A stretch of 64,000 nucleotides of DNA from Actinobacteria bacterium HGW-Actinobacteria-6 (lineage in GTDB: Bacteria > Actinomycetota > Coriobacteriia > Anaerosomatales > Anaerosomataceae): positions 1 to 64,000 of the forward strand of contig PHEU01000002.1 of assembly GCA_002841295.1 (NCBI GenBank). Direction: 5' to 3'. Below the pieces are notes generated by a model, which made no database searches, was not told the origin of the DNA, and was given only the letters and a program-made list of their open reading frames with translations. Made by a program: the position numbers and the translations under genes. Shown piece after piece: positions 29,305 through 49,800 of the stretch; the stretch's first letter is position 1, and each line of letters starts with the position of its first letter.

Positions 29305-30488
29305 CTATTCGGGCCGCGCAACAATCACACGAATTCCTTCGCGCCACGTCTGCGAGACCACCGGCGATCCCGGGCGGTACGCGAGGTGCACGTGCGACGG
29401 CGCGTCAAGCGCTGCGAAGTCTGCCGAGCACCCCGGTGCGAGACGCCCGATGTCAGTGCGCCTGAGTGCGGCGGCGCCTCCGCGCGTGGCGGCAACGAGC
29501 GCCTCGGCGGGCGTCATACGGTACTCGCGCACCGCAAGCGCGACCACGAATGGCATCGAGGTCACAAACGCCGAGCCGGGATTGCAGTCAGTGGCGAGTG
29601 CGACGGTGATGCCGGCATCGAGCAGCGCGCGAGCGTCTGCGTAGCGCGAGCGGGTCGAGAACTCGGCGGCTGGCAGGAGCGTCACGACGGTGTCGCCAAG
29701 TGAGAGCGCGTCCAGGTCCTCCTCCGAGAGGTACGAGCAGTGATCCACGCTGGCGGCATCGAACTCGACTGCCAACTGCGCGCCGGGACCATAGCCGAGT
29801 TGGTTGCCGTGCACGCGCGGAAGCAGCCCGGCTGCAACGCCGGCAGCGATCACACGGATGCTCTCAAGTTCGTCGAACGCCCCGTCCTCGCAGAAGACAT
29901 CAATCCAGCGTGCAAACGGGGCGCACTCGGCCAGCATCTCCCCGGTGACGAGCTTCAGGTACGCCTCGCGATCATCCATGTACTCGGCAGGCACGACGTG
30001 TGCGCCGAGGAAGGTGGTCTCACTGCTGAACTCGCTTGCGACCTCGAGGATGCGACGCTCGGTGGCGACGTCCAGGCCGTAGCCGCTCTTGATCTCCACG
30101 GTCGTGGTTCCCGAGGCGTGCATCTCGGCAAGCAGGCGGCTCGCAGTGGCGCGCAGCTCATCGGTGCTTGCGGCGCGCGTGGCCGCGACCGTCGTCATGA
30201 TGCCGCCGCCGGTGTACGGCTCCCCCGCCATCCGCGCCCCGAACTCCGCCGAGCGCTCGCCCGCGAACACCAGGTGCGTGTGGCTGTCGACGAAGCCCGG
30301 CACCACGGCGCGGCCACCAAGCTCGACGCGCTCATCGGCTGCGGGCGCATCGCTTGCGCGACCCACCCACGCGATGCGGCCGTCCTCGGCGATGAAGGCA
30401 GCGTCGTGCAGGAGCCCCAGCGCGCTTTCGTCGCCGAGCGTCGGCTCGCAGGTGGCAAGCTCGCCGATGCCAGTGAACAGCGTCGCGC

Positions 30489-30492
<4 letters not shown>
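29305..30492 (-). CDS. hutI: imidazolonepropionase
   Basis: 395 aa from the ATG at 30492, which overlaps the hutU stop (ATGA); the frame upstream is a shadow of hutU. It is an amidohydrolase: [19 protein letters not shown] with the metal-binding [29 protein letters not shown] and the aspartate in [10 protein letters not shown]. It opens imidazolone-5-propionate to N-formimino-L-glutamate, third step of histidine degradation. It is the last gene of hutH-hutU-hutI; no hutG or ftcD is attached, but a formimidoylglutamase-like gene lies at 37164. Confidence 0.96.
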
Positions 30493-32149
<1,657 letters not shown>

Positions 32150-32153
<4 letters not shown>

Positions 32154-33688
32154 TCCAACGCTCCAATCGCTTCTTCCACGGCGGCCACAAGCGCGCCGGA
32201 TACAACCAGTCCGTGCACCGCCTCGATCTCCGCCGAGAGGAACCGGTCCGGTCCCGGCCCTTCTACGTGCTCGCGCACGAGCGCGTGCACTGCGCCCGTC
32301 GCAGGCGCCGGCGTGAGCGGTGCGCGGAAGTCGAGCGCCCGGGCCGCCGTCAGCACCTCGATCGCAAGCACCCGCGAAAGCCCGTCCACGCTGCGCCGCA
32401 GCTTGCGCGCCGCGCTCCAGCCCATCGACACGTGATCTTCCTGCATTGCCGAGGACGGTATCGAGTCCACGCTCGCCGGCGCGGCGAGGCGCTTCATCTC
32501 GCTCACGATTCCTGCCGCCGTGTACTGCGCGATCATGTGGCCCGAATCCACCCCCGGGTCGCCCGCCAGAAACGGCGGCAGTCCGTGGTTGCGAGCCACG
32601 TCCAGCATGCGGTCGGTGCGCCGCTCGGCCATGCTCGCCAGGTCGGCCGCAACGATCGCCAGGAAGTCGAGTACGTACGCCACCGGCGCGCCGTGGAAGT
32701 TGCCATTGCTCTCAACGCGACCGTCCGGCAGCACCACCGGATTATCGACCGCCGAGGAAAGCTCGCGCGCGGCGACCATCTCGGCGTGCGCGATCGTGTC
32801 GCGCACCCCGCCCGCCACCTGGGGAGCGCACCTGAGCGAGTACGCGTCTTGCACGCGGACGTCTCCCTCGGCATGCGAGGCGACGATCCCCGATCCCGCC
32901 AGCACGCGCGTGATGTTCCGCGCCGAGGCGGCCTGCCCGGGATGCGGGCGCAGCGCCTGCAAATCCGCCGCGAACACGCGATCCGTGCCGAGCAGCGCCT
33001 CCACGCTCATCGCCGCCGAGATGTCGGCGAGCTTGGCCAGCTCGCGCAGGTCCGTGAGCGCGAGCGAAAGCATGCCGAGCATGCCATCGGTGCCGTTGAT
33101 GAGCGAGAGGCCTTCTTTCTCCTCAAGCTCGACCGGTGCGAGGCCGGCTGTCGCGAGCGCCTCAGCAGCGCATTTGCGGCTACCGTCCGCCGTCCGTACG
33201 ACGCCCTCGCCCATGAGCGCGAGTGCACAGTGCGCGAGCGGCGCGAGGTCGCCAGAGCACCCCAGCGAGCCGTACTCGAAGACGATGGGCGTGATGTTCG
33301 CGTTCAGCATGCCGAGGTACGCCTCGGCAGTGGAAAGTCGCACGCCGGTGCGGCCGGTCGCAAGCGTCGCGAGACGCAGGAGCATCATCGCGCGGATGAC
33401 TTCGGTCTCAACCTCGGCGCCACTGCCCGCCGCATGGGAGCGCACGAGCGAGCGCTGCAGCTGGTGGCGCATCTCGGGCGCGATGTACTTGGTCGCAAGC
33501 GCGCCAAAGCCGGTGCTTACGCCGTAGACGGGCCTGCCTGATGCGGCGAGTTCGTCGATCCGCGCGCGGGCGGCCTCGATGGCGACGACGGCCTCGGCGG
33601 CAAGTTCTACGCGCGCACCGCCACGTGCGACGGCGACGACATCGGCACTAGTGAGCGAACGTGCCCCGACAACTACGGTTGAGTTCAT
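32150..33688 (-). CDS. hutH: histidine ammonia-lyase
   Basis: 512 aa from the ATG at 33688. It carries [13 protein letters not shown] (catalytic Tyr near residue 55) and the prosthetic-group loop [17 protein letters not shown]. The usual Ala-Ser-Gly that cyclises to the MIO electrophile is Cys144-Ser145-Gly146 here (codon TGC); I believe similar Cys-Ser-Gly loops occur in some actinobacterial enzymes. It converts histidine to urocanate and ammonia, opening the hut pathway. It leads the operon; an upstream hairpin and an inverted repeat lie in the 409-base spacer. Confidence 0.95.
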
Positions 33689-34097
33689 TGTCTCTGAATC
33701 GCCTCTCGCTCGATGCCTGGTGCGGGCAGTAGATCGCACCAGTCTGCAACTCAGAATACAGTCTACCCCCGAATGCGCCGGGGGTTTCTCATGGACCGGC
33801 CTGGTCTCGGCGCTCATCCGACAATTGCCCTCATGCTTAACACATGATTCTGTGACCAAACCTGAACCGCTGAGCCTCACTCGTTCGACAATTCACAAAA
33901 GGTTTGTTAATCTAGACTCAACCACCAAATAACAAAGCGTGCGGACGCGCGCACAAAACCGGTTCCGATGCGCCATTCAACCAAGCGGCTTCGCAGGACA
34001 CATTGGCAGAAGCCGCAACGCCTAGGACTTGACTGCACACGCTCAGTACCTGGTCTTTTATCCACTGAGCTGCGAAAAGTGAAAGGAGTTGATGTTG
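33689..34097. other. intergenic region between hutH and the cytochrome operon
   Basis: 409 bases between divergent operons with no gene. It holds an inverted repeat GGTGCG (33719-33724) / CGCACC (33735-33740), a hairpin CCCCCG (33766-33771) / CGGGGG (33779-33784), both close to hutH, and an AT-rich stretch at about 33890-33935. A TTGACT (34029-34034) resembles a -35 box for the cytochrome genes, but I see no well-spaced -10. Confidence 0.5.
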
Positions 34098-34601
34098 ATG
34101 GAGAAGAAGGTTGATGACGAATCAGAAGTCGTCCGACCCGCCCGGAAGAAGAGGCGGCTCTATGTTCTCCTGGGAGCGCTCGTTGCGGTCGGACTCATAG
34201 CTTTTGGTGCCATTGAGTACACCTCATCGCCCGGATTTTGTGCGTCGTGTCACGAAATCGCTCCCTCTGTCGACGGATGGCGATCTTCGGCCCATGCCGT
34301 TGACGACGCTGCGACGTGCCTGGACTGCCATGCAGATCCCGGCTTCGTCGGCGAGATGATCGCGCACATCGGCGGGCTGCAAGAAGCATACGTTCACGTG
34401 ACGGAGAAACCCTCAGCGCAGGACATCGATGGCCTCGTGCCGCAGGCTCGCTGCCTCGAGTGCCATGACGACGCGTGGGACGACGACGCATTCCCTGACG
34501 ACCACCCTACCAAGGAAGCGCCGTGCGGAGTCTGTCACCGTGAATCGGCTCACACGAACGAAAAGGCCGCGTTCATTCCTGCCGCCAAAGGAGGTGAGTA
34601 G
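34098..34601 (+). CDS. NapC/NirT (NrfH)-type membrane tetraheme cytochrome c
   Basis: 167 aa from the ATG at 34098, 9 bases after AAGGAG (ATG at 34092 is too close). One membrane anchor (residues about 21-41, LYVLLGALVAVGLIAFGAI) precedes four CxxCH heme sites: CASCH, CLDCH, CLECH and CGVCH. This is the quinol-oxidising NapC/NirT/NrfH architecture, which passes electrons from menaquinol to a periplasmic or surface reductase. It is coupled to the next gene, whose ribosome binding site overlaps its stop region, so the partner reductase is presumably the 11-heme protein. Confidence 0.9.
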   Translation: MEKKVDDESEVVRPARKKRRLYVLLGALVAVGLIAFGAIEYTSSPGFCASCHEIAPSVDGWRSSAHAVDDAATCLDCHADPGFVGEMIAHIGGLQEAYVHVTEKPSAQDIDGLVPQARCLECHDDAWDDDAFPDDHPTKEAPCGVCHRESAHTNEKAAFIPAAKGGE

Positions 34602-34604
34602 ATC

Positions 34605-35954
34605 TTGAATACCAGAATCGCTAAAAGACTGCTCACAGTCGCTCTCGTCGCTCTCGCGGCCGCTGCTCTGCTCGGCCTGACGGGCTGCGCCACTGAGCAA
34701 CTCAAGGCCGAAGCAGGACAGGTATCATGCGCTGGCTGCCACACCGATCGAGAACTGCTCAAGGCTGATCTCGCTGCTACGCCGCTCCCTGTCGTCGAGA
34801 AGGCCGAGAGCTCGGGCGAGGGTTGAGGTGGATCGTTGCCTCCGGTGGAGGCCGACCTCGCAGCACTCGTTAGCCTGGAGTTCTTCGACACCACTCACGG
34901 CAAGATGGATTGCCGTGATTGCCACGGTGGCGTGAAGTTCGCCGCCAACAGAACCGAGGCTCATGAGGGTATGGACCCGCTCCCTTCCGCGAAGTATGCG
35001 GAATCGGTTTGTGCGCCCTGCCATGACGACATGACCTCAACGTTCGCGACGAACATGCACGCCGACACGTCGGCTGTTTCGGGTGCCACTGACGCGCTGG
35101 TACTTGAGCGCGCCACCGACGTTGAGACGGTGAAGATGGGCCTCGCCAATAACTGCGCGACGTGCCATGTCTCCGGCTGTGGCGATTGCCACGTCTCCCG
35201 TCCGCAGTTCAACGGCGGCGGATTCGTTCGTGGTCACGTTTTCTACGCCGAGCCGAACTCCTCGCTCAACTGCATGGGCTGCCACGGAAGCCGCATTGAG
35301 AAGGAGTACACCGGCAAGGGCGAGAGCGAGAAGACCACGCTTACCGCTGATGTGCACTGGAGTCCCGGTGGCATGCAGTGTGTCGACTGCCACACGGTCG
35401 AGTGGATGCACGGTGGAGAAGAGTACGCCTCGCGATATGAGTCGCCCGAAGCTCCCCAGTGCACCGACTGCCACGAGATCGACAAGAGCATTGAGATGCA
35501 CGCGGAACATGCACTGCCTGACTCAGAGGTCTACCTGCAGTGCCAGGTCTGCCACGCGCAGGATTACAACAACTGCAGCTCATGCCACGTCGCAAAAGAC
35601 GCCAAAGACCTTCCCTACTACGAGACCGAGTCCAGCGGCTTCGATCTGAACATCGGACGCAACTACGCGCAGGACGACTCGCGCCCATGGGACTACATCG
35701 TCGTGCGGCATGTCCCTGTGGCTGAGAGCACATTCGACTTCTACGGGAAGGACGCGCTCGGCAAGCTCGATGCGCTTCCGACCTGGAAGTACGCAACACC
35801 GCACTCGATCCAGCGCGTCACCCGTCAGACAAAGGACGGTTGTGACAGCTGCCATGGGAACCGCGACATCTTCCTCACCGAGGACGACCTCGCCGGTCTC
35901 TCTGATCTTGAACGTAAGGCGAACACAGACGTGTTGGTTACCGATATCCCGTAG
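34605..35954 (+). CDS. 11-heme c-type cytochrome lipoprotein with an in-frame UGA
   Basis: Read from the TTG at 34605 (GGAGGTG 9 bases upstream) this is a 449-codon frame with a TGA at codon 74 (34824-34826). The first part has a lipoprotein signal (LLGLTGC) and one CAGCH; the second, in the same frame, has ten more CxxCH sites (CRDCH, CAPCH, CATCH, CGDCH, CMGCH, CVDCH, CTDCH, CQVCH, CSSCH, CDSCH) but no signal peptide of its own. Heme attachment needs export, so both halves most likely belong to one protein. The TGA lies in a linker, GEG-stop-GGS-LPP, and would be glycine (GGA) with one base changed. Readthrough as selenocysteine, a recent nonsense mutation, an assembly error, or restart at TTG 34836 are the options. 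Confidence 0.75.
34824..34852 (+). promoter_or_regulatory. UGA codon followed by a SECIS-like hairpin
   Basis: Eleven bases after the in-frame TGA, GCCTCC (34838-34843) pairs perfectly with GGAGGC (34847-34852) around a GGT loop. The loop begins with G, 17 bases after the UGA, within the spacing that bacterial SECIS models accept (from memory, about 16-37). GAGGT just after the UGA can also pair with ACCTC at 34855-34859. The same bases hold a GAGGTGG that could act as a weak ribosome binding site for TTG 34836. Confidence 0.4.
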
Positions 35955-35983
35955 TGGGACTCGGAAGTAACGAGGAGGAAAGA

Positions 35984-37006
35984 ATGACAAGCAAGAAATG
36001 GTTAGTGCTAGCGTTGTCCATGGTTCTCGCGATGTCGCTCGTCGCAATGCCGGGTTGCGCCGCGAAGGACGAGGCGCCTGCAGAAACTCCGGCTGCTGAA
36101 GTCGAAGCTCCTGCATTCGATGCATCGCAGGCAATGGTCGACGCCGCCGCCGAGTACTTCAACGGCGAGCCCGTCCCCACCATCTCGGCCGACGATCTCT
36201 ACACGATCGTTCAGTCCAAGGACCCCGGCTACCAGATCGTCTCCGTACGCAGCCCCGAGGACTTTGCCAAGGGTCACATCGAAGGCGCGATCAACATCCC
36301 CTTCAAGGCAATCGGTACCGAGGAGAACTTGGCCAAGCTGGACCCGAACAAGAAGATCGTCGTGGTCTGCTACACCGGTCACACCGCTTCTGAGACCAAC
36401 ATGTTCTACAACATGCTCGGCTACGACGCTGTGACGCTTAAGTTCGGCATGTCTGGTTGGACGAAAGACGAAGCTGTCTATGCCCTCGGTACGTTCCCGA
36501 CTGGCAAGGCTGCCGGCTACCCCACGGTGACCACCGTGACCGAGTCCGCCGGTGGTTTCGATCTCCCGGCCGTGACTGCCGAATACGCTGACGCACGCGC
36601 AGCGATCATCGGCCAGGCAGATGCGTACTTCGCCTCTGAGCTGCCGTTCACGATCACCGCTGAGGACGTCTACAACCTCGTGCAGTCGAAGGATCCGGGC
36701 TACCAGATTCTCTCGGTGCGCGGCGCTGAGGACTACGCCAAGGGCCACATCGATGGCGCGATCAACGTGCCGTGGGTCAAGATCGCCGACCCGACGATGC
36801 TCGCCAAGCTCGACCCGAACAAGAAGGTCATCGTCTACTGCTACACCGGTCACACCGGTGGCGAAGTGGCAATGTTCCTGAACCTCATGGGCTACCAGGC
36901 CATCAACATGAAGTTCGGCATGTCCAGCTGGAACAGCGACGCCGCTGTTGGCGGCAACGCTGGCTATGATCCTGCTACGGTCAAGGGCTATCCGACCGTC
37001 AAGTAA
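35984..37006 (+). CDS. tandem-rhodanese lipoprotein
   Basis: 340 aa from the ATG at 35984 with GGAGG 5 bases upstream. Lipoprotein signal ending MSLVAMPGC, so it is anchored outside the membrane. Two similar rhodanese domains follow (about 60-180 and 215-330), each with an intact active-site cysteine in the loop CYTGHT, and each preceded by VQSKDPGYQI. Rhodaneses carry sulfane sulfur as a cysteine persulfide. It lies 29 bases after the multiheme cytochrome gene and before a terminator, so it belongs to that operon; a sulfur-handling role in respiration is inferred. Confidence 0.9.
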   Translation: MTSKKWLVLALSMVLAMSLVAMPGCAAKDEAPAETPAAEVEAPAFDASQAMVDAAAEYFNGEPVPTISADDLYTIVQSKDPGYQIVSVRSPEDFAKGHIEGAINIPFKAIGTEENLAKLDPNKKIVVVCYTGHTASETNMFYNMLGYDAVTLKFGMSGWTKDEAVYALGTFPTGKAAGYPTVTTVTESAGGFDLPAVTAEYADARAAIIGQADAYFASELPFTITAEDVYNLVQSKDPGYQILSVRGAEDYAKGHIDGAINVPWVKIADPTMLAKLDPNKKVIVYCYTGHTGGEVAMFLNLMGYQAINMKFGMSSWNSDAAVGGNAGYDPATVKGYPTVK

Positions 37007-37027
37007 TCAGAACCAAGCGTATGTAGC

Positions 37028-37061
37028 CGAAGGGGCTCTGCAGAGATGCAGAGCCCCTTCG
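37028..37061 (+). terminator. terminator of the cytochrome-rhodanese operon
   Basis: GAAGGGGCTCTGCA (37029-37042) and TGCAGAGCCCCTTC (37047-37060) form a perfect 14-bp stem with a GAGA tetraloop, extended by C28-G61. It lies 20 bases after the rhodanese stop. Confidence 0.88.
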
Positions 37062-37163
37062 CTATCCCGCGCCTACGAGGTTCACGCCGCACCTGATGGG
37101 GCATCTTGTGAGAGACTCTGAACAGCGAAGATGACATCCGCCGCCTGAAACAGAGGAACCACG

Positions 37164-38087
37164 ATGAGCGCACACGACCTTCCTGGCGACCCGCTCTGGC
37201 CAAGAGCATCCGCGTGGCTCACTCCCGCGAGTGACGCTCACCCCGAGGGCGACATCGCGCTACTCGGCGTGCCTGCGTTCCGCTCCTCGATCACCCCGAC
37301 AGGCGCGAATGCCACGCCCGCCGCAGTACGCGAAGCACTCACGCGCTACTCGACCTACTCGGCCAGCAGAGATATCGATGTCGCAACGGTCTCGGCGATC
37401 GACCTCGGCGACGTGGACGAACCTGATGGCGCCGCAGGGCACGCGCGTGTCACTGCCGCGTCGGCCGATGCCGAGGGCCGCTTTCCACTGCTCATCGCCA
37501 TCGGCGGCGATAACTCCGTAACGCTACCGGTGATGACAGGCCTCGCGCGCGGCGACCTCAGCGGCTGGGGGCTCGTCACGGTCGATGCACACCACGACCT
37601 GCGCGACGGCAAGAGCAACGGCTCCCCCGTCCGCCAGCTCATCGATGCCGGGCTGCCGGCAGAGCACGTGGTGCAGATCGGCATCGCGGACTTTGCCAAC
37701 TCGCCCGCGTACGCGAAGCGCGCCAAAGACCTCGGCATCACCGTTATGACGCGCGCGTCTCTTCGCGGTCGCAACATGGCAGAAGCTGCCGAGGAGGCCC
37801 TGCGCATCGCGGGACACGGCGGTCGCCCGGTCTACGTGGACCTCGATGTCGACGTCTGCGATCGCGCTGAAGTGCCCGGCTGCCCCGCAGCGGCGCCCGG
37901 CGGCATCACAGCCGATGAGCTACGACAACTCGCGCAGCTGTTCGCCTCGGACACGCGGGTGCGAGGCATCGACATCACTGAGATCGATGCCACGATCGAT
38001 GCGGAGGACGGCAGAACCGTGCGGCTCGCGGCGCTCCTGGTGCTCGAGATCGCGACGGGCTATGCGCTACGCCCGGATGCGACCTGA
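37164..38087 (+). CDS. ureohydrolase, probably formimidoylglutamase
   Basis: 307 aa, ATG start with GAGGAA upstream. It is an arginase/agmatinase-fold enzyme: GGDNSVTLPV, VTVDAHHDLRDG (the DAHxD manganese ligands) and YVDLDVDVCDRAEVPGCPAAAPGG, followed by DITEIDATID. The CPAAAPGG loop and nearby hut operon favour formimidoylglutamase (HutG), which completes histidine breakdown to glutamate and formamide; agmatinase or arginase cannot be excluded from sequence alone. A following arginine deiminase/carbamate kinase set shows arginine is handled by the other route. Confidence 0.8.
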   Translation: MSAHDLPGDPLWPRASAWLTPASDAHPEGDIALLGVPAFRSSITPTGANATPAAVREALTRYSTYSASRDIDVATVSAIDLGDVDEPDGAAGHARVTAASADAEGRFPLLIAIGGDNSVTLPVMTGLARGDLSGWGLVTVDAHHDLRDGKSNGSPVRQLIDAGLPAEHVVQIGIADFANSPAYAKRAKDLGITVMTRASLRGRNMAEAAEEALRIAGHGGRPVYVDLDVDVCDRAEVPGCPAAAPGGITADELRQLAQLFASDTRVRGIDITEIDATIDAEDGRTVRLAALLVLEIATGYALRPDAT

Positions 38088-38090
38088 GTT

Positions 38091-39032
38091 CTACCGACGC
38101 TCCGAGGGCACCTCGGCAACAACGTTGGTGCCGGCTTCACCGGTAACGATGAGCGCAATGTCCTCAAGCTTGCCGATTGCTGCACGATTGCCGGTCTTGC
38201 GGACGAAGCGCTTCGCCGCCTCGACCTTCGGTCCCATCGAACCAGCCGCGAACTCGTGCTCATCGAGCACCTCAGGAGTGGTCCAGCCGAGCACACACTG
38301 CTGCGGGGTGTCCCAATCAAGGCACACGCCCTCGGCATCGGTGGCCATGATGAACAGATCGGCACCGAGCTCGCGCGCAAGCAGCTCACCCGCGAAGTCC
38401 TTGTCGATGACTGCTTCGATTCCAACGAGCGTACGGGTGCCATCGGGCAAGTAGACAGTCGGGATGCCTCCCCCGCCAGCGCAGATAACAACCGAGCCCT
38501 TCTCGACGAGCCACTTGATGGGCTCAAGTTCGAAGATGCGCTTGGGCTGTGGTGATGCGACAACGCGGCGCCACGTTCGACCGTCTTGCTTGAACACCCA
38601 GCCCTTCTTGAGGGCCAGCGCGTCGGCGATGTCCTTCTCGTAGCAGGGCCCAACGAACTTCGTCGGGTTGTCGAAGGCCGGGTCGTTCGGGTCCACTTCC
38701 ACCATCGTGAGCAGCGTAGCGAGCCGCTTTGAGAACGGCAGCACGTTGCCCAGCTCCTGCTCGACCATGTACGCGATCATTCCCTGCGTCTGCGCGCCGA
38801 GGACGTCAAGCGGGTACGGCTCAACGTCAGTGTATGCGGCGGCTTGCAGTGCGAGCAGTCCCACCTGCGGACCGTTGCCGTGCGCGATGATGAGGTTGTG
38901 GTCCTCGGCAAGCGGAGCGAGAGCGCGCGCAGCAATCTTCACGTTGGCGCGCTGTGCTTCCGCGGTCATCGGTTCCGAGCGACGCAGCAGCGCGTTGCCG
39001 CCGAGCGCCACCACGATGGTTAACTTCTCCAT
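38091..39032 (-). CDS. arcC: carbamate kinase
   Basis: 313 aa of normal length. Family marks: [81 protein letters not shown] (split in text as one region) and [17 protein letters not shown]. It makes ATP from carbamoyl phosphate, the last step of the arginine deiminase pathway. arcA lies at 41777 on the same strand, but two cell-envelope genes on the opposite strand separate them and no ornithine carbamoyltransferase is in the window. A 17-bp palindrome lies 42 bases upstream of its start. Confidence 0.95.
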
Positions 39033-41776: not shown

Positions 41777-43045
41777 CTACTCGAGTGCGTCGCGTGAGAT
41801 CGGGCAGGTCATGCAGTGACAGCCGCCCCGACCCTTGCCAAGCTCACTACCCTCGATCTCGAATACCTCGATGCCCGCGTTACGCAGCGCCGCATTCGTG
41901 TGCATGTTCTTGGAGTATCCGATGACCACGCCCGGCTCAAGCGCGACGACATTGTTGCCGTCATCCCACTGCTCGCGCGCCGCCTGAAACGCGTCACCAC
42001 CGGTCGGTATGACTCGCAGCTTCTTGACCTCAAGCGCGTCTGCAACGGCGTCGAGCAGGCTCTTCTCGGCGGTTATGTCGAAGCAATCGGCCGCCTCACC
42101 GGGTCGTATGCTGTAGACCTGCATCGACTCGATGACCGGCGGGTACATCGTCACGGCGTCGCGATCGACAAAGCCGAAGACGGTATCGATGTGCATGTAC
42201 GCGCGATCGACCGGCATGCGGCACGCGATGATCCGCTCGGCAGCGCCTGCAGAGAAGAGCGAGTGCGCCAGATGCTCGACCATTCGGCCGGTGGAGCGCT
42301 CCCCCATCCCCACGAGGACGGTCTTGTTGCCGATAGGCATCAAGTCGCCGCCTTCAAGCGAGTTGCCCTGACCGAGGTCCTCCACGCCAAACCGGCCTGC
42401 ATCGCCCTCGGGGGGATACCAGAACTCAAAATCCGCCCCGGCAAAGCGCGGGTGGTAGCGGTAGATGATCGAGGTGTTCACGACCTCGAGACGCCGCGCA
42501 TGCCAGAAGAGCGGCGGCAGGATCACGCCGCCATAGAGCCACGCGCTGGAATCGCGCGTGAAGAGGCTGTTCGGCAGCGGCGGCAGAACGAACGAGTTCG
42601 GCTCGGCAAGCACGGCACCGAGCGAGTGGCGATTGAGGGCGTCCAGGTCGAAGCCTTCCAACTCCTCGATGAGCAGACCACTCACAAGTGCCTCGGCGAG
42701 CTGCTGAGGCGGCATGCCGAGCAGGAAGGCACGCAGATCTCGCACCATCGACGGGCCGACGGTGTAGGACGACACGAGGCGCGTCACGACGTCGGCGCGT
42801 GCCTCGGCAGATGCCGTGAGCGTCTCAACCAGCAAATCGAAGAGGTAGAGCACCTCCACGCCGCGGTCGCGCATGACCGTGGTGAAGTCATCGTGCTCGC
42901 GCTGCGCGCGCTCGACCCACACGAGGTCGTCAAACAAAAAGCGCTCGCGATTATGCGGAGTCATGCGCTCGAGCGCAAGGCCCGGACGATGTACGAGCAC
43001 GGTTCTGAGTTTACCGACTTCAGAGTATGCACCGAGCGTTGTCAT
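41777..43045 (-). CDS. arcA: arginine deiminase
   Basis: 422 aa. Marks: VGKLRTVLVHRPGLALERMTP, FTRDSSAWLYGGVILPP, SLEGGDLMPIG (EGGD) and the C-terminal GRGGCHCMTCPISRD with the nucleophile C411. It converts arginine to citrulline and ammonia, the first step of the pathway ending at ArcC. There is no strong ribosome binding site; AAGG lies 10 bases upstream. The arc genes are not contiguous here, unlike the usual arcABC operon. Confidence 0.96.
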   Translation of the reverse strand: MTTLGAYSEVGKLRTVLVHRPGLALERMTPHNRERFLFDDLVWVERAQREHDDFTTVMRDRGVEVLYLFDLLVETLTASAEARADVVTRLVSSYTVGPSMVRDLRAFLLGMPPQQLAEALVSGLLIEELEGFDLDALNRHSLGAVLAEPNSFVLPPLPNSLFTRDSSAWLYGGVILPPLFWHARRLEVVNTSIIYRYHPRFAGADFEFWYPPEGDAGRFGVEDLGQGNSLEGGDLMPIGNKTVLVGMGERSTGRMVEHLAHSLFSAGAAERIIACRMPVDRAYMHIDTVFGFVDRDAVTMYPPVIESMQVYSIRPGEAADCFDITAEKSLLDAVADALEVKKLRVIPTGGDAFQAAREQWDDGNNVVALEPGVVIGYSKNMHTNAALRNAGIEVFEIEGSELGKGRGGCHCMTCPISRDALE

Positions 43046-44721: not shown

Positions 44722-46926
44722 CTAGTGCACGGAGACGACCTCCGCCCCACCTCCGTCATCAGAGCTCGGTGCCGTCAACGCGAACGTGAACACGAAGGTA
44801 GAGCCTGTCCCCTCCACGCTCGACAGCGTCACATCGCCACCCATGAGGCGCGCCAGCCGGCGCGAGATCGGAAGTCCCAGTCCGGTACCGCCCTGCGGGT
44901 TGTCGCCGGGGCGGCCCATGCTTTTGAACTCGTCGAAGACTTCTTCGAGACGGGACTTCAAGATGCCGACACCCGTGTCAGTCACGGTGATGCGAGCATG
45001 GTCGTTGACCGTATCAAGCGCGATCGTCACGCCGCCCGTGTCGGTGAACTTCACCGCGTTGCTGAACAGGTTGAGCAGAACCTGCCGCACGCGATCCTCG
45101 TCCGTACGCACCAGTAGTCCCGCTTCCGGCACGCGGATATCAAGCGAGAGCCCACGATCCTTCGCCATCGGTGCCATGATCTCCGCCGCTGAACTGACGA
45201 GTTCGGCAATATCGAACTCATCGACCTCAACGAGCATCGCTCCTGCCTCGATCTTCTCAAGATCGAGCACGTCGTTCACGAGCGCCAGGAGGTGATTTCC
45301 AGAACGCACGATCATGCCGAGCTGTCGTTCCTGCTCATCGTTGACCGGCCCCGCGAGTCTTGAAAGCAGAATATTCCCGAAACCGAGAATCGAGTTCAAT
45401 GGCGTCCGTAGCTCGTGGCTCATGTTCGCAAGGAAACTCGACTTGGCGTTACTCGCGGCATCGGCTGCCTCGGCCGCTACGCGGAGTCGGGCCGCCTCTT
45501 TCGATTCTGTGATGTCGATCATGACGCCAACCAGCCGAACGCCACCGGATTCATCTGCGTGCACCGAGACGACGTCCTCGATCCACACGACCTTGCCGTC
45601 GGGTCGGACTACCCGGTACTCGATATTGTGGTCCCCGCCGTGACCGGTCGCCATCACGCAGGCATTCACCGCGGCGTCACGGTCCTCAACGTGCAACGTC
45701 TGCGCCCAAGAGTCGAGATCAGTCCATACCTCGGGCGCATAGCCGAGAAGCCGCTCGGCCTGCGGACCGACGTACACGAATCGATCTGCATCCATGTCGT
45801 ACTCCCACGGAATGGCCTGGAGCGACTCCACGAGGAAGCGGTACTGCCGCGCGGAGGCCGCGAGGTCTTGCTCACGCCGTTTCACCGCATCGGTCATATC
45901 ATGAAGCGCCGATCCGAGCCTCTGAAGCTCGACTTCCCGGAAGCCCGTGGGTGCCGATCCGTACTCTCCTCGAGCCACGTGATCCGCATAGGCCGCAAGT
46001 TCACTGACCGGCTGCGCCAATCGCTTTGAGAAGGGTTCTGCCAGCGTCATCGCGAACGTCGCCGCAAGGATGATCAGCAGCACGACAACGTACTGACTTC
46101 CCAGAATCGTCTCCCGCGCCGGTTTCCACGGTTGCATCGCAAGGGCGACCCAGCCGACTTGCCCCACGACGCGTGCCGAGCCGAGATACTCCGTTCCCTG
46201 CCAGGTGTAGCGTCCGTGCGCCAGGGTTCCACCCGACAGAACCGCATCAACGATTGCGATGCTGCGAACGTTCGGACGCTGCGCCAAGACGATCTCATCG
46301 GGATAGAAGATCGGCACACCATTCCCATCGATCACGACCGGCAGCGCAGACAACTCCTCGGGAATGTCAAAGACAACCATCTCCGAAAGTGTCAGATTGA
46401 CGACGATCACACCGGCTCGAACGGGTACGACGTAGGAGAGCGCCGGCTCGCCGGTCATCGGTGAGAGATAGACGTCGGACCACGCGGGCTTACGTGTTGC
46501 GAGGGACGAGGCGACCGTACGATCCCTGGACCGATCCAGACCGACGAACCATGCACCCTGCATACCGGTTCTGGTCTCGAGCGCGGCCGCCTGCACGATG
46601 CCAGCATCGTCGAGCAACAACAGGGATTCGATTTCGGGCGTGCCGTCGATGATATCCCGCCAATGCTGCCCGGGATCCTCGGTGTCGAGGATCTCCTGAT
46701 AGCTCTGGCCGAGATACGGTGCGACTACCGCTTTCGGCACCTCGAGCGACTGCTCGATCTGCGTCGCGAGTGCTATGGCACTCAGATCATTGGAACTGAC
46801 GATCTGGTCGGACAGCATGCCCCGCACAAGGATGACCGAAACGACTGCAACGACAAGCAACGGTAGCAGCGCGGCCAGCACGAGTCGTCGCGAAATCGCT
46901 GTTCTGAACGAGTGAGACCGCCACAT
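44722..46926 (-). CDS. membrane sensor histidine kinase: extracytoplasmic sensor, HAMP-like linker, PAS (orphan)
   Basis: 734 aa. Membrane segments at about 15-35 and 275-297 bracket an extracytoplasmic double-Cache-like domain (AWFVGLDRSRDRTVASSL, PAWSDVYLSPMTGEPALSYVVPV). A HAMP-like linker follows (KRLAQPVSELAAYADHVA), then PAS at about 365-485, HisKA (NMSHELRTPLNSILGF, H near 503) and HATPase_c (NLFSNAVKF, DTGVGILKSR, GTGLGLPIS). It starts two bases after the stop of a substrate-binding lipoprotein gene, so the lipoprotein likely presents a ligand to this sensor. No response regulator is adjacent. Confidence 0.92.
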   Translation of the reverse strand: MWRSHSFRTAISRRLVLAALLPLLVVAVVSVILVRGMLSDQIVSSNDLSAIALATQIEQSLEVPKAVVAPYLGQSYQEILDTEDPGQHWRDIIDGTPEIESLLLLDDAGIVQAAALETRTGMQGAWFVGLDRSRDRTVASSLATRKPAWSDVYLSPMTGEPALSYVVPVRAGVIVVNLTLSEMVVFDIPEELSALPVVIDGNGVPIFYPDEIVLAQRPNVRSIAIVDAVLSGGTLAHGRYTWQGTEYLGSARVVGQVGWVALAMQPWKPARETILGSQYVVVLLIILAATFAMTLAEPFSKRLAQPVSELAAYADHVARGEYGSAPTGFREVELQRLGSALHDMTDAVKRREQDLAASARQYRFLVESLQAIPWEYDMDADRFVYVGPQAERLLGYAPEVWTDLDSWAQTLHVEDRDAAVNACVMATGHGGDHNIEYRVVRPDGKVVWIEDVVSVHADESGGVRLVGVMIDITESKEAARLRVAAEAADAASNAKSSFLANMSHELRTPLNSILGFGNILLSRLAGPVNDEQERQLGMIVRSGNHLLALVNDVLDLEKIEAGAMLVEVDEFDIAELVSSAAEIMAPMAKDRGLSLDIRVPEAGLLVRTDEDRVRQVLLNLFSNAVKFTDTGGVTIALDTVNDHARITVTDTGVGILKSRLEEVFDEFKSMGRPGDNPQGGTGLGLPISRRLARLMGGDVTLSSVEGTGSTFVFTFALTAPSSDDGGGAEVVSVH

Positions 46927-46928
46927 GG

Positions 46929-48071
46929 CTACTCGGCTCTTACGAACGCGCTGTCGAGGATAGTCATGAGGAAGTAGTCGCGCACGACATCACCGTTCTC
47001 GTCAATTGAAACGACACCCTGTACAGCGGAATACGAACGACAACCGTCGAGCTCGCGCTTCAGTGCCTCGCGCGTCTGGGCTCCTTCCAACAGCGAGACG
47101 GCAAGCCGCGTTGCATCATATGCGTGCACTGATGCGAATCCCGCTTCGTAGCCGAATCGCTTGCGGAATCGCTCGGCGAAGTCCCTGTACGCAGGCGCTG
47201 AGGACTCCCGGTCAAAGGTGTTGAGGAACATCATTCCCTCGACCGCACGTCCTCCGTAGCCGATCACGACCTCGGTAGCTGACCACTCACTGGTGATGAG
47301 GTGGCCTTCGAACCCCCTGTTCCTCATGAGCGTGGCGATCCTGGCGGTATCGAGCGCATTTGCCAAGACGAACACGCACTGCGGATCAGAGACAAGCGCG
47401 TTGGTGATGGCAACGTCGTACGTATCCAGCTGTCCCGAAGTGATCTGATCCGAGGCGACCACCGTACCGTTGAGATCAGTGAAGGCCGCGGTGAAGTTGC
47501 GCGCCCAAGTCTCGGTATGCGATGAGTTCGCGAGGTCATATATCATCGCGACTCGTGTATGGCCGAGACTGTCGTGGACGACTGTCGCAAGCTCGTGAGC
47601 GGCGCTCGAATTGTCAGGGTAGAGACGGTAGAAGAAGTCAGCCTTGCCTGTGAGTGCATCCGTGCTCGTCGTGGGGCTGATAAATGGCACCTTGAGCTCA
47701 TCTGCCAGCGGCGCGACCGCAACCGCTATCGCACTTGTCATCGGGCCTATCACAGCAAGGGCACCTGCTGCTTCCAGATCGCGAAACGCGCTCGCTGCCC
47801 TGGTGGCATCCTGTGCGTCATCGGCCGGAAGGAGCATCACTTCTCTGCCAGCGATGCCGCCGGCGAGATTCGTGTCCTCAATTGCGAGCAGAGCGCCATC
47901 GCGGCCGGCAACGCCGAGGTCGGTCGTGCGCCCCGACATGCCGCCGAGGTAGCCGATCACGATGGGCTCGCGATGCGAGGTGCAGGCCGGGATGAGGCCA
48001 CACGCGACGACAGCAAGCGTGACTACCAGAAACACTCGAACATCTCGGGTACGTTGCATCTTAGCGCCCAT
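46929..48071 (-). CDS. branched-chain-amino-acid-type substrate-binding lipoprotein
   Basis: 380 aa from the ATG at 48071 (ATG at 48059 is an alternative; neither has a strong ribosome binding site). Lipoprotein signal with LIPAC as the likely lipobox. The body is a type I periplasmic-binding (LivJ/Peripla_BP_6) fold: IVIGYLGGMSGRTTDLGVAGRDGALLAIEDTNLAGGIAGR, VIGPMTSAIAVAVAPLADELKVPFISPTTS. No ABC permease or ATPase gene is nearby; the following gene is a sensor kinase 2 bases away. A sensory rather than transport role is therefore likely (inference). Confidence 0.88.
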   Translation of the reverse strand: MGAKMQRTRDVRVFLVVTLAVVACGLIPACTSHREPIVIGYLGGMSGRTTDLGVAGRDGALLAIEDTNLAGGIAGREVMLLPADDAQDATRAASAFRDLEAAGALAVIGPMTSAIAVAVAPLADELKVPFISPTTSTDALTGKADFFYRLYPDNSSAAHELATVVHDSLGHTRVAMIYDLANSSHTETWARNFTAAFTDLNGTVVASDQITSGQLDTYDVAITNALVSDPQCVFVLANALDTARIATLMRNRGFEGHLITSEWSATEVVIGYGGRAVEGMMFLNTFDRESSAPAYRDFAERFRKRFGYEAGFASVHAYDATRLAVSLLEGAQTREALKRELDGCRSYSAVQGVVSIDENGDVVRDYFLMTILDSAFVRAE

Positions 48072-48197
48072 CGTCGGGACCCCGAACCAAGAACGTGTGT
48101 GTTCAATGTATGCGCGTTCAAGGCGAACGGCAATAACCCAACGACAGGCGGTACGGCAGCCCCCAAACGTGACAGCGTAGCCATTCTTGATGCTGGG

Positions 48198-48203
48198 TAC
48201 AAT
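48198..48203 (+). promoter_or_regulatory. candidate -10 box for the heliorhodopsin gene
   Basis: TACAAT lies 61 bases upstream of the GTG start in the 192-base divergent spacer. No convincing -35 box occurs at 17-18 bp, so this rests on the -10 alone. Confidence 0.3.
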
Positions 48204-48263
48204 TCCCTGTGACACTCAAGGCCCGAGCAGCTACGCTTCGGGTCCGAAACCCGGGAGGACAGC

Positions 48264-49022
48264 GTGGCAGACGACACCCGCTTCAAGCGCTTGCGGCTCT
48301 ACAACATCGTGATGGGATTATTCCATCTCGGGCAGGGCATCGCGATCGCGACGCTCTCGAACAGCTTCAAGCTGCCGGTGACCGCCACACTCATGCAGGG
48401 ACCTCCCGGCACGCCCCCAGGAGTGCCGACAACGCTCTTCGAGATCCCGCTCGGTTGGGCTGTGGCGACGTTCGTGTTTCTCTCGGCGCTGGCGCACTTC
48501 ATCATCGCGTCGCCGCTGGCATTTGACTGGTACGTGAAGAACCTCAAGCAGAACCGCAACTACGCGCGCTGGATCGAGTACTCGGTCTCCTCGACGCTCA
48601 TGGTCGTGCTCATCGGCCTGTTGCCGGGCATCTTCGACATCGCGGCGATCATCGGCATCGCCGGCGCGAACATCTCGATGATCCTCTTCGGCTTGCTGAT
48701 GGAGAAGTACGAGTCCCCCGGGAATCCGAACTGGCTGTCGTACATCTTCGGCTGCATCACCGGCGCGGTCCCGTGGATAGCCATCGCCGTCTATCTCTGG
48801 GCTCCAGGTCAAGTGGCCGAGCCGCCCGCGTTCGTCTACTGGATCTTCTTCTCGATGTTCATCTTCTTCATGAGCTTCGCGCTCAACATGGTGCTGCAGT
48901 ACAAGAAGATCGGCCCTTGGAAGGACTACCTATTCGGCGAGGCTGCGTACATACTGCTGAGCCTCACCGCGAAGTCGCTGCTCGCATGGTTGGTCTTCGC
49001 GAACACGCTGATTCCGACCTAG
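48264..49022 (+). CDS. heliorhodopsin
   Basis: 252 aa, GTG start with GGGAGG upstream. Seven hydrophobic segments; the family marks are all present: N-terminal RLYNIVMGLFHLGQGIAIA, the third-helix ARWIEYSVSSTLM with the counterion Glu at E105, and the retinal-binding lysine K237 in SLTAKSLLAW (E107 and K241 in the founding protein 48C12). Heliorhodopsins are inverted-topology, light-sensing microbial rhodopsins with no pump activity in most cases studied. No carotenoid or retinal synthesis gene is in the window. It is divergent from a substrate-binding protein/kinase pair and convergent with a nitroreductase gene, 7 bases away. Confidence 0.93.
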   Translation: MADDTRFKRLRLYNIVMGLFHLGQGIAIATLSNSFKLPVTATLMQGPPGTPPGVPTTLFEIPLGWAVATFVFLSALAHFIIASPLAFDWYVKNLKQNRNYARWIEYSVSSTLMVVLIGLLPGIFDIAAIIGIAGANISMILFGLLMEKYESPGNPNWLSYIFGCITGAVPWIAIAVYLWAPGQVAEPPAFVYWIFFSMFIFFMSFALNMVLQYKKIGPWKDYLFGEAAYILLSLTAKSLLAWLVFANTLIPT

Positions 49023-49029
49023 GCCGCAC

Positions 49030-49800
49030 CTACTCAGACTCCGGCGCGCACCAGCGCTCGAGCCACCAACGAACGGAACGGTTCATCTCGGCCATATAGG
49101 CCGGGGTGAACTTCCGTTTGTAGACCTTTTGTCCGATGTTCGTGATGCCGGGACCGAAACCGTGCGGCGAGTGCATCGCCCCGAGATCGTCGGATACCCC
49201 GGCAAGCTCTTCATCGGTTAGGCGATGGTATGAGTTGGAGTGCACCATGTGCTTCTCGTAGTGAGGCGTTGGCTCACGAATGGCCGCGGGATGCCCGAAG
49301 CACAGCATCGCGATCGGCAGCGTGTGTTGCGGCAGGCCGAGAAGCTTCGCATGGATCTCCCCCTGCTCCAACACGTCCCCGATGTAGCACGAGCCAATGC
49401 CGAGCGATTCAGCGGCGACCACCGCGTTCTGCGCAGCGATGAGCGCGTCAGAGCACGACATCATGAGGTCGCCGACGTCGGGGGTCGCGCGGTGCTCGAC
49501 GCCCTCGACCTGCTCGGCACCTGAGAAGCGGAACAGATCGATCCACTTCTGCATGTCGGCAACGAACACCAACACCAACGGCGCTTTCGCAATGAACGGC
49601 TGATCGTCGCAGGTGTCCGCAAGGCGGTCTTTCAGCGCCTGATCGGTCACGTCGATGATCGAATAGAGCATCATGTTGCCCGCAGTAGGCGCGCGCAGTG
49701 CGCTATGGAGTATAGCTGCCTTCTCGGCAGCGGTTATCTCAGTCGCGGCGTAGGTGCGAGTCGAGAAGCGCGCGTCCAGCAGTGCCAGCGTAGAGTTCAT
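49030..49800 (-). CDS. nitroreductase-family FMN oxidoreductase
   Basis: 256 aa. FMN-binding marks: RFSTRTYAATEIT (the R-S-x-R motif), ALRAPTAGNMMLYSI, AAESLGIGSCYIGDVL and LPIAMLCFGHPA. The C-terminal extension (IGQKVYKRKFTPAYMAEMNRSV) places it with NfsA/FRase-like members. It likely reduces quinones, flavins or nitro compounds with NAD(P)H. It lies tail to tail with the heliorhodopsin gene; a functional link is speculative. Confidence 0.87.
   Translation of the reverse strand: MNSTLALLDARFSTRTYAATEITAAEKAAILHSALRAPTAGNMMLYSIIDVTDQALKDRLADTCDDQPFIAKAPLVLVFVADMQKWIDLFRFSGAEQVEGVEHRATPDVGDLMMSCSDALIAAQNAVVAAESLGIGSCYIGDVLEQGEIHAKLLGLPQHTLPIAMLCFGHPAAIREPTPHYEKHMVHSNSYHRLTDEELAGVSDDLGAMHSPHGFGPGITNIGQKVYKRKFTPAYMAEMNRSVRWWLERWCAPESE

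Follow-up and report, generated by a model that had tools for sequence, protein, structure and literature searches.

The locus considered here raises the question of how an apparently anaerobic actinobacterium comes to keep a heliorhodopsin (HeR) when no gene for making retinal lies nearby. It belongs to a 64,000-nucleotide stretch (the window) of the genome of Actinobacteria bacterium HGW-Actinobacteria-6, a member of the order Anaerosomatales. The gene occupies positions 48264..49022 on the plus strand and encodes 252 aa from a GTG start, as indicated by its open reading frame and by profile, PDB and model matches. Just 5' of the start a Shine-Dalgarno-like GGGAGGA stretch can be read (48249..48263, plus strand), and a promoter scan of positions 47950-49100 around the gene gave no sigma-70-like match above chance. 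The protein matches the Pfam family Heliorhodopsin (PF18761) over the whole profile (1-242/242, E=2.8e-98, 328.5 bits) and the NCBIfam equivalog NF038020 at 321.9 bits (cut-off 100). Placement by profile search had been set beforehand as the point on which the identification could fail, and both profiles gave full-domain matches. Heliorhodopsins were also the sole matches in a phmmer search of the PDB, the best being 48C12 (E about 3e-73).

An AlphaFold model, for which the 35 order sequences served as alignment input (pLDDT 85, pTM 0.82), contains seven transmembrane helices and, in the first extracellular loop that joins helices 1 and 2, a pair of strands. In a Foldseek comparison this predicted fold superposes on 48C12 (6su3) with a TM score of 0.92 and an rmsd of 2.0 Å; type-1 rhodopsin structures reach 0.53-0.69 at 10-18% identity. 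The retinal-binding lysine K237 (codon 48972-48974, plus strand) lies in helix 7 within S233-L-T-A-K237, an SxxxK motif whose serine and lysine are invariant in 35/35 intact order sequences. The helix 3 counterion E105 (codon 48576-48578, plus strand), in W103-I-E105-Y-S, is equally invariant (35/35). Both positions were assigned from motif position and alignment, where K237 pairs with K241 and E105 with E107 of 48C12, so the Lys/Glu pair is present. The complete signature that the original prediction had read from the letters (WIEYS with E105, K237, seven membrane segments, 252 aa) is thus borne out by profiles, PDB, model and residue positions alike, and the gene encodes a true, full-length, intact heliorhodopsin (type-3 rhodopsin). 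By homology to 48C12, it is expected to have the inverted topology, with a cytoplasmic N terminus. A type-1 ion-pumping rhodopsin was considered and rejected: helix 7 carries SxxxK, not DxxxK, and Heliorhodopsin was the only Pfam family matched.

The host genome (2.35 Mb, 69 contigs, 95% complete) has an anaerobic look, as had been proposed. Within the window we found genes for arginine deiminase, carbamate kinase, a formate-dehydrogenase beta subunit, NapC/c7 multiheme cytochromes and a bacteriohemerythrin, and family searches of the whole host genome gave no match to heme-copper (COX1) or cytochrome bd oxidase. An anaerobic lifestyle is therefore well supported for this host; terminal oxidases are present in its genus mates G017, G018 and G019. 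The first Anaerosomatales brought into culture are obligate anaerobes of subsurface origin, and some isolates of the order come from the deep subsurface (PMC9686372). Elsewhere in the window, hutH, hutU and hutI lie close to a formimidoylglutamase-like gene and the carbamate kinase in a region of histidine degradation and amino-acid fermentation (29305-39032). The left edge (280-2534) encodes a Fic/Doc-family protein together with a tyrosine recombinase, and these may represent a small mobile element.

Where, then, would retinal come from? The original prediction had noticed no retinal gene near HeR, and this absence extends to the full host genome and across the order. Family profile searches of 69 order genomes, host included, found BCD (Blh/Brp), RPE65-type dioxygenase and phytoene synthase (SQS_PSY) in 0/69, and likewise no CrtI over the cut-off (0/69); the weak CrtI matches seen in every order genome were generic FAD-binding domains below the cut-off and were discarded. 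These negatives are meaningful, since the BCD profile finds matches in 17/296 genomes of the phylum, and the PSY and RPE65 profiles also match in controls. A rhodopsin photosystem linked to blh, with its own retinal synthesis, was accordingly rejected, none of Blh/Brp, the RPE65-type enzyme or CrtB/CrtI being found in any of the 69 genomes. In the 296-genome phylum sample, where the search for cleavage enzymes covered BCD, 79 genomes have HeR and 73 of these show no BCD match, the two occurring together in only six (G133, G218, G223, G238, G259, G312). In this phylum, then, HeR usually occurs without Blh.

The gene had also been called unexpected in an anaerobe, and here our results point the other way. 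Heliorhodopsin matches occur in 41/69 order genomes, so that its presence in the host is typical rather than exceptional. Full-length copies number 35 genes in 34 of the 41 (G067 has two); the other matching genomes hold pieces at contig edges, or remnants. Most carriers have no detected oxidase. A terminal oxidase is rarer with HeR (6/41) than without it (11/28; Fisher p=0.025, ancestry ignored), an effect that comes largely from one family and that reaches p=0.10 among genomes at least 90% complete. Photolyase is commoner with HeR (19/41 against 5/28; Fisher p=0.02, ancestry again ignored). Heliorhodopsins are already known from strictly anaerobic Firmicutes (PMC8612252) and from Bathyarchaeota whose genomes lack essential retinal-synthesis genes (PMC7110647), so the window HeR belongs to a known kind. 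Among the papers searched, none joined heliorhodopsin with both anaerobic and Coriobacteriia, and the paper describing the order makes no mention of rhodopsin (PMC9686372).

In a quick tree, the order HeRs form two sister clades, A (including the window HeR) and B, both patchily spread; within the window's own genus some species have clade A and others clade B. This pattern implies duplication or transfer with losses. G067 holds one HeR of each clade (L051 and L070). G009, which is of the same family and has a genome complete in one contig, carries a divergent copy (L049) that is only 46% identical to that of the window and sits on a very long branch. Truncated or frameshifted remnants occur in G003, G056, G040, G066 and G037 (L076, L074, L075, L073 and L078, respectively), that of G003 well within a 157-kb contig; such remnants reflect either decay, HeR being dispensable in some lineages, or assembly error.

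The intact copies show no sign of such decay in their photochemical core. For 48C12, the chromophore and hydrogen-bond network comprises N16, H23, Q26, S76, H80, Y92, R104, E107, Y108, S111, E149, E230, S237, K241 and W246 (PMC9726877), to which N14, H21, Q24, S74, H78, Y90, R102, E105, Y106, S109, E147, E226, S233, K237 and W242 correspond in the window protein. All 15 are invariant in 35/35 intact order HeRs, where 66/252 positions are invariant overall (hypergeometric 5e-10, uncorrected for family-wide conservation). As the network is conserved throughout the family, what matters is rather that it has stayed intact in an order that lacks retinal genes. The dN/dS ratio between the window HeR and that of the sister species is 0.08, and seven other pairs give 0.04-0.13. 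HeR is under strong purifying selection, with the Schiff-base lysine among the invariant positions.

The surroundings of the gene are poorly conserved. On one side, a lipoprotein-type periplasmic binding protein (Peripla_BP_6; 46929..48215, minus strand) is divergent from HeR and is otherwise found beside it only in G017; because of its lipobox, LIPAC, its true start is probably an ATG near 48059-48071, which would leave an intergenic gap of about 190 bp to HeR. It is followed by a HAMP-PAS-HisKA-HATPase histidine kinase, identified by profile match (44722..46926, minus strand, opposite to HeR). On the other side, a nitroreductase-family flavoprotein (49030..49800, minus strand) lies tail-to-tail with HeR, with 7 bp between the stop codons. 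Both flanking genes being on the opposite strand, neither is co-transcribed with HeR, which forms a single-gene unit. We looked for a universal operon partner in the order and found none, neighbour clusters recurring in few loci at most. Among clade-B loci (L056, L062, L063, L057, L065), a MarR-type regulator lies 64-82 bp upstream of HeR on the same strand in three, a DUF1295-type-like membrane reductase (judged by eye) within 1 kb in four, and an SDR-like oxidoreductase convergent with HeR in two, all of these patterns falling within 1 kb of HeR. The arginine deiminase gene (41777..43045, minus strand) is single copy in the host, as in nearly all genomes having it; it lies about 5-7 kb from HeR in the host and G017, and adjoins HeR in other genera of the order, being tail-to-tail at 20-42 bp in four genomes of two families (L040, L043, L044, L045). 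This association is a weak lead and could simply stem from a gene order inherited in common.

We consider it reasonably likely that the intact HeR works as a slow light sensor rather than a pump and draws its retinal from the surrounding community, in an anaerobe that has no known retinal route of its own. The apoprotein would take up all-trans-retinal shed by aerobic or phototrophic neighbours, and the retinal would form a Schiff base at K237. If the model for 48C12 applies, the Schiff-base proton may move upon illumination via E105 to H78/H21, and this movement could alter the shape of HeR and hence a protein partner. The partner is probably encoded elsewhere in the genome, given that HeR forms a monocistronic unit without conserved neighbours. 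The payoff might be that an oxygen-sensitive cell is warned of light and thereby of photo-oxidative and DNA damage. External loading has a precedent in TaHeR, which is cited in PMC9296517 as binding retinal rapidly by way of an opening, a route used by organisms that lack a retinal pathway; the same paper offers precedents for scavenging by heliorhodopsin and other rhodopsins. The subsurface origin of some members of the order counts against a light sensor, light being absent there, and conservation of the network could instead reflect a light-independent structural role. More tentatively, and with rather more doubt than belief, we suggest that an order of mainly anaerobic Coriobacteriia may keep functional HeRs whose retinal comes entirely from other organisms, or else from an undescribed oxygen-independent synthesis, which would make light sensing a shared community good.

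Other readings of the locus have to be set against this one. The original prediction proposed that HeR feeds light input to the adjacent binding protein and histidine kinase or to the nitroreductase. The same genes do flank HeR in the sister species G017, whose HeR is 94% identical, and histidine kinases have been reported near heliorhodopsins across phyla (PMC8612252). However, the nitroreductase and the binding protein are found again next to HeR in only that one of 39 order loci, and neither lies near HeR in any of 80 loci of named genomes (some contigs being shared with the order loci). With genes on opposite strands on both sides, and four histidine kinases in the 64-kb window making a nearby kinase unremarkable, the proposed coupling fares poorly, and we regard it as distinctly improbable. 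That HeR is a recent foreign gene or an assembly contaminant without a role would agree with the patchy occurrence of the two clades in the order and in the window's own genus, which shows that transfer or loss has occurred. Yet HeR lies on a 177-kb contig, its GC content of 0.60 is less than 1 sd from that of the window tiles (0.63 +/- 0.03), and the G017 copy has the same neighbours, so that this is a chromosomal gene and not part of a stray contig. Synteny and composition led us to reject contamination, and with its nearest relatives in the order and a dN/dS of 0.08, a recent arrival with no role is hardly credible.

Two further readings share with the scavenging sensor the lack of known retinal genes. 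The host might make retinal by an unknown, possibly oxygen-independent route; such routes exist in the phylum, as shown by Aurantimicrobium minutum, which produces retinal although it has neither blh nor diox1 (PMC7734400), and conserved photochemistry residues would fit a self-supplied chromophore. A. minutum comes from another lineage of actinobacteria, though, and without phytoene synthase in any of the 69 genomes there is no carotenoid precursor by a known path, so we hold this to be rather unlikely. Alternatively, light might be of secondary importance, and HeR would then serve as a scaffold or regulator, chiefly in its apoprotein form or with a different ligand. Heliorhodopsins do bind and regulate partners, namely glutamine synthetase (PMC9529153) and an ABC transporter (PMC11109279), and both the missing retinal genes in 69 order genomes and the subsurface habitats of cultivated relatives (PMC9686372) would suit such a role. 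It would nevertheless predict relaxed constraint at K237 and the proton relay, all of which is invariant in 35/35 sequences, and we judge it unlikely.

A sensor loaded with scavenged retinal thus remains our preferred reading, and the value of the window HeR is that of an order-level test bed for a known question rather than of a new kind of protein. For the retinal source of anaerobic heliorhodopsins, and their need for retinal, this order offers a clean contrast: many genomes, no known retinal or carotenoid gene, and a photochemical core that is fully kept. The order also has cultivated members (PMC9686372), which makes retinal uptake, spectral activity and light response testable if an isolate carries HeR.

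Among known systems, 48C12 (6su3, 6su4, 6uh3) is closest, with full-length homology, about 50% identity in the structural alignment at the TM score of 0.92, and counterparts in the window HeR for E107/K241 and the whole hydrogen-bond network. It comes from a different lineage, and small length differences place its lysine at 241 rather than 237. TaHeR, from a Thermoplasmatales archaeon (6is6, 7u55), is also similar (TM about 0.90, 46% identity) and, as noted above, is cited for its uptake of external retinal through an opening (PMC9296517); unlike the window HeR it is archaeal. The Firmicutes MORN-HeR (PMC8612252) and the Bathyarchaeota HeR (PMC7110647) resemble the window HeR in having anaerobic hosts, and the Bathyarchaeota, like our host, are missing essential genes of retinal synthesis (PMC7110647). 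The window HeR differs from both in that it lacks a fused MORN or zinc domain and belongs to an actinobacterial order.
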